Origin: Longimicrobium sp.
Lineage (GTDB): Bacteria; Gemmatimonadota; Gemmatimonadetes; Longimicrobiales; Longimicrobiaceae
Reading direction: 5' to 3'
Assembly: GCA_036387335.1 (NCBI GenBank)
Contig: DASVTZ010000143.1
Span: 1 to 32,795 of the forward strand
Length of the DNA stretch: 32,795 bases
The first letter of the stretch is position 1; every line of letters begins with the position of its first letter. The translations under genes were made by a program, and so were the position numbers. Below, one piece after another: positions 11,877-18,741 of the stretch. Under the pieces are notes generated by a model that made no database searches, had not been told where the DNA came from, and was given only the letters and a program-made list of their open reading frames with translations.

Positions 11877-12372
11877 GTGTGCCGCGCGCCCGGCCCACCC
11901 CGGACCCGATCCAAGCCGGTAGTTTGCCGGAAGTTGGGGGAGAAAGCAAGGCGCGGAGGAGATGGAACGGATGGAACAATCACACAGAGGCCACTGAGGG
12001 AAACGGAAAGCCGCGGTAACCCTCTTTCCGTAGGGCTGTTTGTAGCCAGTGCGTCTTTATTTGACGCTGCCGTTGGAGCGTGCGCGGCCTGCCGAGCCAC
12101 CAAGGTTCTCGCCGTCGGCGGGATCCCCCGCGGGGCGCGCCCACCTTTTCGATTACTAAGTGCCTTTTTAGGTTGTTGACGAGCAGTACACGCCTGTTTA
12201 CCGTTCATGCACTCCGCGGAATGGCAACGCACCCCGTCCAGAGCGGCGACCCCGTGATCGTGCGTCCCGAGGACAAGGCTGATTCGCACAACGCGTCATC
12301 GTACAGTCCCCCAGCGGTACGAGCACTAACCGGCACGCTGGCGAGATTCCCCTTCCTGGTACCTGGCCGCTG
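11877..12372. other. 496-bp divergent intergenic region
   Basis: The region separates tgt (-) from the propeller lipoprotein gene (+). It holds a degenerate family E fragment (CACACAGAGGCCACTGAGG at about 11981) and a slightly less GC-rich stretch at 12147-12215. A possible weak sigma-70-like promoter for the plus-strand gene is TTGACG at 12176-12181 with TACCGT 17 bp on. The -10 is poor and I do not rely on it. No RNA gene or riboswitch was recognised. Confidence 0.4.
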
Positions 12373-13535
12373 ATGAAGGCGACGATTTCCGCTTCGGTGC
12401 TCTGCGAACAGCGTGTGGGCTCTGCACGGCGCTTGGGTGCGGCGCTCATGGTCGCTCTAGGCGCATGCGGGCCGGCTGAGGACGGAGCCACGATGCCGGA
12501 AACCGATCCGCGCGTGGTGTGGTCCGTCGCGATTCCCGCGCCGGGGAACGGCACCCCGATCGCGACGGACGACCGCGTCGTGATCGCGGGCGACTCCGGG
12601 CTCGCGGCGTACGACGCGCGGGGCGGCACTCTGCTCTGGCGCACGCCGGTACGGGTCGCGGGGGCAAACCGCGGGCTGGTTCTACACGGAGCCCGCCTCT
12701 TCTCGGCCGCGGTGGGTGGTGCGCGGGCGTACGACATGGCGACCGGCGCCCTGCTCTGGGAGCGCCTGATGCCGCAGGACGCCGCGCTGGATGCCACGGA
12801 TGCCGCCGCCGACGAGAAGGCGCTCTACATAGGCACACGCGATCTCCGGGTGCTCGCCCTTGACCGCGAGTCGGGCCAGCCGCTGTGGGACGTCCGCGTC
12901 CCGCGCGCTGACTGGCATGCGTCCAGCCGCCAGAGCGTGGCGGGGATCGTTACCTCGGGCGACACTGTGTATGCCGCAGTGAACCGTGACCTGACTGTGG
13001 GAGCTTTCGAGTCGGCGGTTGTATTGATTGCGTTCGACCGCTCCACCGGCCGCGAGCTCTGGCGGTACCAGACGGAGGGAAGGAGACCGGCACGGACGCG
13101 GCGCCCGCACTCGCTGGTTCGATGCTGGTGGCGGGCGGCGCCCGCGATGGGCATTCCGTCGCGGTCGACCGGTTTACACGACGCGAGGTGTGGCGGCGTG
13201 ACCTGTACGGCTTCGTGTGGGAAACACCCGCGGTGCAGGGCGGCCGTATCTTCCTGGGCACGCAAGCGGCCCGCCTCTACGCTTTGGATTCGTCGACGGG
13301 CCAGAGCGTCTGGGAAAGGGCGCTGGAGGGTGGCTCCACCTATCAGGCGGTCTGCGGGGACAAATTGGTCGTGGAGAATACCGCGGTGGAGTTGTTCGAC
13401 GCCGCAACGGGTAAGAGGTCGGGCCGGAAAATCGGTCTTGCGCCCGACGACTTCGTGAGTTCCGGAATCGCGGTATCCGGCAACCGCGCCTTCTTCGCCG
13501 GTGAGCGAAAGCTTTACGCAATCCGCTGCGACTGA
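12373..13535 (+). pseudogene. PQQ-like beta-propeller lipoprotein, split by a frameshift
   Basis: The first part reads from ATG 12373 with a basic region, a short hydrophobic stretch and a lipobox ending at C32 (MVALGAC), so an outer- or inner-membrane lipoprotein is expected. Propeller blades follow with recurring patterns: AYDARGGTLLWRTPV, AYDMATGALLWERLM, ALDRESGQPLWDVRV, AFDRSTGRELWRYQT. After 13077 the blade pattern jumps to the next frame (KETGTDAAPALAGSMLVAGG, ALDSSTGQSVWERAL) and ends in a TGA at 13533-13535. One missing base near the G/A run at 13075-13083 restores a 387-residue protein. It may be a real disruption or a sequencing error. Function is not known; the fold resembles BamB or PQQ-like proteins. 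Confidence 0.8.
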
Positions 13536-13556
13536 CGAAGGTTTTCACGGACAGGG

Positions 13557-13594
13557 CGGGGGTGGTGCACCGGAGTTTGGATGCACCGCCCCCG
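13557..13594 (+). terminator. Hairpin terminator after the propeller gene
   Basis: Stem CGGGGGTGGTGCA (13557-13569) pairs with TGCACCGCCCCCG (13582-13594), with one G-T wobble and a 12-nt loop. TTTCGTT follows. It lies 22 bp after the stop at 13535, in the right place to end plus-strand transcription. Confidence 0.7.
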
Positions 13595-16515: not shown

Positions 16516-18654
16516 ATGTCCGAAGCCGCTGCCTTCCTCCTCCTCAAGTCTTCCCTCGTTCTGATCGCCGCCTGGGTGGTGGTGGCCGGCCTGCGGCTCA
16601 GGCGAGCATCCTCCGCCGCGCGACACCTGGTTTGGACGCTCGCCGTGTGCGCGCTCCTGCTCCTTCCGCTCCTTTCGGCCGGTATGCCGCGCTGGGACGT
16701 GCGCTGGCTGCGCGGCCTCGCTCCCAGCGCGCTCGCCTCCGCTCCCTGGATTCCGGACGGCCCGCTGCCGCAAACGCCGCCCTCGGAGCCCCTGACCGGC
16801 GCGACACCGGCGCCGGCGGTCGACGGGGCGCTTCCGGAGGTGCGCGCGGCCGAGCGTCCACTCGCTGCTGGCGGATACCTGGCGGCCGGGTACGGGATCG
16901 GCCTCGCGCTTGTGCTCGGATGGATGATGACCGGCTCCGCTCATCTCCGGCGGATGGCGGGGCAGGCGGAGGTCGTCACCGATCCGGAGTGGCTGGAGCT
17001 GATGCGCGAAGTCGAGTGGATCCTGGAGATCCCGCGGCCGGTGCGCCTGCTGCGCAGCCGGGAGGCATCCATGCCGATGGCCACCGGGATCCTGCGTCCG
17101 GCGGTGATCCTTCCCGTCGGCGCGGACGGCTGGGCGGAAGATCGCCGCCGCGTGGTCCTGCTCCACGAGGCCGCCCACATCGCCCGGCGGGACTGCCTGA
17201 CGCAGATGTTCGCCGCCCTCGCGTGCGCCACCTACTGGTTCCACCCCGCCGTCTGGTACGCCGCGCGCCAGCTTCGCGGCGAACGCGAGCTCGCCTGCGA
17301 CGATCGGGTGATCGCGGCTGGCGCAAGGCCGCGGGACTACGCCGAACACCTTCTCGAGATCGCGCGTTCGCTGCGTTCGCCGAGGCTGGTGGGCCCCGCC
17401 ACGGTCAGCATGGCGCGCCCGTCCCAGCTCGAAGGGCGTCTGCTGGCGGTGCTGGACGAGGTCCGTATCCGCCGCACGCTTCCCATCTCGTTGGTGCTCG
17501 GCGCCTGCGCCGTCACGGGCGCCCTGGTGCTCCCGCTGGCGGCCCTCGTCCCGTCCCCGCCGGCATCGGGTGTGGCGGTGGCGGAACAGAGTGCCCTCAC
17601 CACGGACCTCACTGGTGAGTTCGAGCGGATCGTGCCGACCGCTTCCGGAAAGACGCTCGAGCTTGACCTGGGCGCGGCCTCGCGGGTGCGGATCCGGGGA
17701 TGGGACCGGGGCGCGGTGCAGGTGCGGGGCTGGAGCCAGGAGGGGAGCCGCGCTCTCGTCGCGGTCGGCCTGGAGCAGTCGGCGACCGGCGCCCGCCTGG
17801 TGACCCGCGGGGAGAGCCGGGGGGCAGGCGCGCCCGGCACGCACTCCCTGGAGATCCGGGTGCCGACGCGGTACGGCATCCACATCCGCGGAAGTGGCAG
17901 CAGCCTGGAGGTCTCGGATTTGAGCGGTCGGCTGAGCGGGAGCACCGAGGGCGGCGTAGTGCGCCTGGCACAGGTCGGCGGGCGGGTCGATCTCTCCACG
18001 GGCGGCGCGGGCGCGAGCGTGACTGACTCCCGTGTGGACGGACGCCTGCTCACCGGGGGCGGCGCGGCGGACATCCGGTCGAACGTCGGGGACCTGGACC
18101 TCCGCGCCGGCGGCCGCACCCGGGTCGAACCCCGGGGGGCGCCTTCCGCCGCGCGCGAGTTCCGGCGGGGTGTCCGCGCGCTGACGGGGGTGGGCCGTGC
18201 GGCGCTCCACCTGGCCGAAGGCTCCGTCTTCGTCGACGAAGCGGACGAGGGCTTCGACGTGGAGACCGGCCGGGGGGATATTGTCGCCGGCCGCGTGGTG
18301 GGACACGCGGCGGCCCGTACGGCCGCTGGAAACGTGGAGCTGCGCGGAGTCTCCGGGTGGGCCGCGGTCGAGAGCGGACGTGGCGACATCCACGTGGAGA
18401 TGTCCGGGGTACGCGGCGCGAACCTTACGGCGCGGGCTGGAGGCGTCACCATCGTGCTCCCGGCCGCGTTCGCCGGCTCGATCGACGCGACGTCCACCGC
18501 CGGGAGGATCGAGAGCGATTTCACCCTCGCCCAAACCTCGTCCCCTGCCGGCGGAGAGCGGCGCTCGAGAGCAGGCGCGGCCGGCGGGCGCGTGACCATT
18601 TCCGCGACCGGGCCCGTCCGGATTCGACGAGCGAGCGGCGCGCGGACACGCTGA
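16516..18654 (+). CDS. M56 (BlaR1-like) membrane metallopeptidase fused to a DUF4097-like domain
   Basis: 712 residues. Membrane helices at about 5-25, 37-55, 120-137 and 323-345 frame a cytoplasmic gluzincin domain with H217-E-A-A-H221 (VVLLHEAAHIARRD) and ELACDD (258-263), the M56/BlaR1 signature. After the last helix, residues about 365-700 are a long extracytoplasmic beta-rich region of short repeating strands (VRIRGWDRGAVQVRGWS, LEVSDLSGRLSGSTEGGVVRLAQVGGRVDLSTGG in pieces, GFDVETGRGDIVAGRVVGHAAARTAAGNVELRGV). It resembles DUF4097-type adhesin/beta-helix domains. There is no penicillin-binding sensor domain. By analogy with BlaR1, an outside signal would activate the protease to cleave BlaI; the signal is unknown. 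It probably shares a transcript with blaI. Confidence 0.87.
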   Translation: MSEAAAFLLLKSSLVLIAAWVVVAGLRLRRASSAARHLVWTLAVCALLLLPLLSAGMPRWDVRWLRGLAPSALASAPWIPDGPLPQTPPSEPLTGATPAPAVDGALPEVRAAERPLAAGGYLAAGYGIGLALVLGWMMTGSAHLRRMAGQAEVVTDPEWLELMREVEWILEIPRPVRLLRSREASMPMATGILRPAVILPVGADGWAEDRRRVVLLHEAAHIARRDCLTQMFAALACATYWFHPAVWYAARQLRGERELACDDRVIAAGARPRDYAEHLLEIARSLRSPRLVGPATVSMARPSQLEGRLLAVLDEVRIRRTLPISLVLGACAVTGALVLPLAALVPSPPASGVAVAEQSALTTDLTGEFERIVPTASGKTLELDLGAASRVRIRGWDRGAVQVRGWSQEGSRALVAVGLEQSATGARLVTRGESRGAGAPGTHSLEIRVPTRYGIHIRGSGSSLEVSDLSGRLSGSTEGGVVRLAQVGGRVDLSTGGAGASVTDSRVDGRLLTGGGAADIRSNVGDLDLRAGGRTRVEPRGAPSAAREFRRGVRALTGVGRAALHLAEGSVFVDEADEGFDVETGRGDIVAGRVVGHAAARTAAGNVELRGVSGWAAVESGRGDIHVEMSGVRGANLTARAGGVTIVLPAAFAGSIDATSTAGRIESDFTLAQTSSPAGGERRSRAGAAGGRVTISATGPVRIRRASGARTR

Positions 18655-18683
18655 ACGGGCGTCGCGGTACCACGATCTCACAA

Positions 18684-18715
18684 AGAGGCACGGAGAAGAA
18701 ATTCTCCGTGCCTCT
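18684..18715. terminator. Perfect 14-bp hairpin between convergent M56 and queA genes
   Basis: AGAGGCACGGAGAA (18684-18697), loop GAAA, then TTCTCCGTGCCTCT (18702-18715). It is followed by CGTTCTCGTTTGTG. It lies 30 bp after the M56 stop and 26 bp after the queA stop on the other strand, so it may terminate both. The composition (CACAAAGAGGCACGGAG) also links it to the family E repeats. Confidence 0.65.
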
Positions 18716-18741
18716 TCGTTCTCGTTTGTGATTTCCTCTTT

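Follow-up and report, generated by a model that had tools for sequence, protein, structure and literature searches.

Throughout most other genera and families, queA and tgt lie 2–120 bp apart. In this Longimicrobium genome they are separated by 6865 bp, which raises the question of how the intervening DNA came to be there. The window, meaning the whole stretch of 32,795 nucleotides analyzed, is one complete contig (C143) of a 5.8-Mb assembly in 265 contigs (G000). As an initial sequence-only reading had described, ruvC–ruvA–ruvB–queA on one side of the block and tgt–yajC–def on the other are all on the minus strand, with a split of ~6.9 kb. At one edge is an intact queA (18742..19782, minus strand; Pfam PF02547, E=1e-134) and at the opposite edge is tgt (10713..11876, minus strand; PF01702, E=4e-151). 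Directly upstream of tgt, a conserved region at 11877..12031 marks the right border of the variable interval, with 97% identity over 77 bp to the sister genome G006 and 76% over 155–179 bp to G004. Further into the interval, at 12373..13535 on the plus strand, is a PQQ/BamB-like beta-propeller gene in two frames, with PF13360 matching both pieces; the frame splits near 13080–13122, reflecting either a broken gene or a sequencing error. Elsewhere in the window, an imperfect tandem repeat of ~200 bp (78% identical) occupies 3947–4361, at the start of an ORF.

Comparison with relatives, as that reading had proposed, shows queA and tgt close together in other genera and the split within the genus to be derived. 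Spacing is 30–119 bp in other genera of the family (G012, G013, G017 and G019). Of the 38 order-level loci that have both genes, 33 show a spacing of 181 bp or less, the five exceptions being 279, 1736, 1842, 2837 and 8951 bp. Within the genus itself, spacing ranges from 685 to 8760 bp in all seven members whose queA and tgt share a contig (G000, G002, G004–G007 and G009); G001, G003 and G008 have tgt on a different contig from queA. What lies between the two core genes varies among relatives. The G006 interval contains a Band-7 gene and, immediately upstream of tgt (L033:9787–11841), an AAA/DUF4276 pair matching HEC-01, a candidate defence pair. That of G007 contains Hachiman (HamA, HamB; L040:12083–15734), in which third-position G+C is lower, and a beta-lactamase-family gene. 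MreB is found in the G005 interval, a small membrane-like ORF in each of the G002 and G009 intervals, and PAS-histidine kinase genes in those of G018 and G016, which belong to other genera. The interval of G015 (L043:7757–16027) has a 3.6-kb direct duplication, 82% identical, and a 730-aa protein with no Pfam match. These data show that, in this genus, the queA–tgt interval is a hotspot at which accessory genes are gained with no integrase present. The block in the window is itself accessory, as had been supposed, being absent from the nearest relatives.

The unit bracketed by queA and a displaced queA remnant (described below) consists of exactly the three genes originally listed: M61, blaI and M56. 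The first, on the minus strand at 13871..15775, encodes an M61-family peptidase with a PDZ domain, a signal peptide-like N-terminus and an HELFH motif (PF17899, PF05299, PF13180). The other two are on the plus strand and encode a BlaI-type repressor (16094..16483; PF03965, E=5e-22) and a BlaR1-type M56 membrane metallopeptidase with an HEAAH motif (16516..18654; PF05569, E=3e-28, and PF13349). The blaI ORF opens at 15929, though its true start is likely 16094. At the C-terminus of M56, a DUF4097 region takes the place where a beta-lactam sensor would be. HEXXH motifs are intact in both peptidases. Two dyads are present: TTGACAGGATGTCAA at 16053..16067, a putative BlaI operator upstream of blaI, and TTGACACTATGTCAA at 15921..15935, a putative BlaI operator overlapping the –35 element of the M61 promoter. 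Perfect TTGACA-N3-TGTCAA dyads occur just twice in the 5.8-Mb assembly, at these two sites (15921 and 16053). The only promoter of its kind found in the region, a sigma-70-like site at 15935–15907 (minus strand; 10/12), is directed at M61. With repressor and protease adjacent, HEXXH motifs in place and a dyad as putative operator, blaI and M56 have the features of a BlaI–M56 pair.

Such pairs were seen at six other loci examined in the family, one of them in this genome, and in four of the six a TGACA-N3-TGTCA dyad lies upstream. The M61 of the window has homologues of 52–59% identity elsewhere in the family, and the nearest relatives (G004, G005 and G006) have only paralogs of ~34%; the best full-length M56 match in a relative is ~44% identical. 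None of the M61 homologues elsewhere in the family has an adjacent blaI, so this wiring appears specific to the present genome. Judged from these sequence features, the three genes most likely form a protease-gated switch, in which the sensor–repressor pair controls the divergent M61. BlaI would bind both dyads and repress M61 together with its own blaI–M56 operon; a signal would then activate the M56 membrane protease, leading to inactivation of BlaI and induction of the M61 peptidase. A PADLOC search returned no match that would assign M61/BlaI/M56 a known defence role.

At the far end of this unit is a queA 3'-end relic (13722..13758, minus strand), identical to 18748–18784 at 33 of 37 positions. 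The sequence-only reading had described a 40-bp match (13722–13761 versus 18748–18787) with about 35 identities; the match and its exact 19-bp core are real, but the count is 34/40. Orientation and frame are those of queA, as stated there, and the stop inside the relic is an in-frame TAG. Against the whole 5.8-Mb genome the relic has E=4.7e-7, and its sole other match is queA. The relic–queA alignment scores 54, compared with a maximum of 39 when the gap was shuffled 400 times (Gumbel p ~2.6e-6) and with 26–38 for the tails of 13 other ORFs in the window. Among 21 genomes of the family, the 37-bp segment matches only the 3' ends of queA (in G000, G001, G006, G009 and G018). Matches confined in this way indicate that the relic derives from queA and is not a dispersed repeat, the possibility that had been named as fatal to the idea. 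An assembly misjoin was also considered and is unlikely, since the longest exact word common to queA and the gap, 19 bp, is too short for an ordinary misjoin.

Two hairpins that do belong to a dispersed intergenic repeat lie nearby on the minus strand. One adjoins the relic (13665..13711; ~20 matches in its own genome and 30 or more in G006), and the other, terminator-like, is just 3' of queA (18680..18719; RNA fold z=–5.6), with 18 matches in the genome, itself included. Both are of the CACAGAG/CACGGAG type, of which G000 and G006 have tens of copies and which possibly represents a family of terminator-like repeats. When the 25 bases that follow the intact and displaced tails were compared for similarity, several pairs had low shuffle p-values. 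We set this result aside because stop codons common to the tails, and the dispersed hairpins, bias the comparison.

A second displaced tail, much longer, was found in G006. There, a frameshifted 325-nt queA 3' fragment, which includes the stop region and has a one-base deletion, lies 1.6 kb downstream of the intact gene (L033 11904–12238). Synonymous divergence (dS) of the fragment from G000 and G004 (0.187 and 0.237) matches that of the first 230 codons of G006's own queA (0.186 and 0.238); for the intact tail, the values are 0.345 and 0.407. Over 101 codons, the intact tail carries 10 unique synonymous changes, compared with 1 for the fragment. The fragment also has 4 unique nonsynonymous changes which, with the frameshift, point to recent decay. 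Compared with upstream codons, the excess in the G006 intact tail is borderline (12/101 versus 38/593, p=0.06). Hence the evidence that G006 imported its functional tail and displaced the native one as a fragment is good but not conclusive. A common origin of the two displaced tails was considered and rejected: had the fragment existed before the species split, it should have decayed further, and the sequences flanking the two tails are different. G006 retains a native-like 325-nt remainder and the window a 37-bp relic, in unrelated flanks, as at non-homologous junctions. A self-scan of 0.76 Mb of the two genomes revealed a clear displaced gene tail at queA only, once in each. No queA tail relic was found in the other gapped genomes, and in a search of the 38 order-level loci no score (maximum 36) rose above noise.

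Could an integrating element have left these tails? Bacteriophage 21 and the element e14 integrate at icd and supply a replacement tail, and the original proposal for this locus was of that kind. One part of it, a gene rebuilt with its old tail displaced, fits the G006 fragment; the other part, a site-specific integrating element, finds no support. No integrase is present in the interval or anywhere else on the contig that carries queA, either in G000 or in G006, which extends the earlier remark that none was visible. Genome-wide, G000 has two tyrosine recombinase matches, neither on the queA contig and probably the housekeeping XerC/XerD pair; no serine recombinase was matched in G000 or G006. 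Neither a tRNA near the interval nor an Rfam match was found, and the unit contains no mobility gene of the sort that would mark it as a site-specific integrative element. Nor do the tails, of 37 and 325 nt, share a fixed attachment core. The break points in queA are at about codon 334 in the window and about codon 232 in G006, so that the tails start ~285 bp apart, which argues against a common crossover site. It would still be conceivable that an element integrated at the queA 3' end, gave it a replacement tail and later lost its integrase. In G006, the foreign-looking tail in front and the native one behind are also what such an element would leave, and two sister genomes have queA in common as the gene with a displaced tail. 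But the cargo between the tails is unrelated in the two genomes and lacks phage or conjugation genes, and with the other evidence just given we consider this history unlikely. The absence of an integrase and a tRNA, together with tails that start at different codons, favours homology-anchored illegitimate recombination instead.

Our main reading is that one-sided illegitimate recombination, anchored by homology in queA, built the locus, with M61/blaI/M56 acting as a protease-gated switch; we give it a probability of roughly 60%. DNA from a related bacterium, carrying a queA allele with other genes behind it, would have entered the cell and recombined homologously inside the resident queA. At its other end, the join would have been made by illegitimate recombination, either barely within the tail of the resident queA or past it. 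This queA would thereby acquire a new 3' end and remain functional, the donor's neighbouring genes would be trapped, and the old tail would persist as a decaying fragment. We infer that the 37-bp relic is native, that it arose by the same route as the G006 fragment and that a donor supplied the incoming DNA.

The relic could also have arrived with the accessory DNA, as a foreign queA tail beside the cargo, leaving the queA of the window wholly native. The 4 differences in 37 bp would suit such an origin, as would the ordinary divergence of the window's own queA tail, in which unique synonymous changes affect 6/101 codons, against 31/593 in the part of the gene upstream (p=0.81). Because the tail shows no excess, its import in this genome is deduced rather than demonstrated. 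Yet G006 indicates the opposite polarity, and a search for a donor locus with queA beside the window's cargo found none, making this account quite unlikely. In a separate part of the gene, at 19480–19580 (alignment positions 200–300), differences of the G000 queA from G004, G006 and G005 are locally in excess, which suggests a separate allele import within queA.

Tandem duplication across the queA 3' end, with subsequent decay of the second copy, was the alternative originally offered, and as the simplest local event it would account for the shared orientation and frame. It is contradicted for G006, in which the intact and displaced tails have only 2 exclusive codons in common and ~27 nucleotide differences over 101 codons, as expected of separate lineages. 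In neither genome, moreover, does clear homology extend beyond the intact and displaced tails. We therefore regard duplication as distinctly unlikely, with a small probability left to it for the 37-bp relic. Least likely of all is that, in this genus, some unrecognised, recombinase-poor mechanism specifically targets the queA 3' end, loading anti-phage and other accessory genes into the queA–tgt interval and rebuilding queA each time.

Read as the product of homology-anchored illegitimate recombination, the locus is a legible fossil, from a phylum with few cultured members, of the integrase-free entry of accessory and defence genes into a fixed chromosomal position. Displaced core-gene tails of this type provide a means of locating insertions, dating them and identifying the foreign copy. 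The queA–tgt interval also offers a practical place to search for new defence and regulatory cassettes in Longimicrobiaceae.

The queA–tgt feature is real, and one-sided illegitimate recombination is an already known mechanism. The nearest systems are homology-facilitated illegitimate recombination, as in Acinetobacter, Streptococcus and Pseudomonas stutzeri, and the displacement of T6SS orphan-immunity genes and rhs C-termini. The same recombination model has been put forward to explain displaced immunity genes in Vibrio and rhs tails (PMC5361080), and also dimorphic loci (PMC2884548). Like these systems, the present locus combines one conserved anchor, new downstream cargo and an old 3' part shifted downstream. 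Unlike them, it is anchored in a housekeeping tRNA-modification gene and not in one for a toxin or an effector, and its displaced queA tail retains no function. As for the cargo, BlaI lies directly upstream of M56, as in BlaI–BlaR1 and BlaI–M56 pairs, but the M56 C-terminus is DUF4097-like instead of a penicillin-binding sensor, and the divergent M61 attached to the pair in the window is absent from the other family loci examined. Islands in the tRNA-Leu beside tgt/queA of Pseudomonas (PMC2647930) differ from the interval studied here in being tRNA-targeted and integrase-bearing. A closer likeness is to integrase-free hotspots that recombine at flanking core genes (PMC5635113) and to the core defence hotspots of Pseudomonas (PMC10250203), in which variable accessory and defence genes likewise sit between fixed core genes with no integrase. 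What sets the present interval apart from these is that the queA tails directly trace the joining event, in a group of uncultured Longimicrobiaceae.
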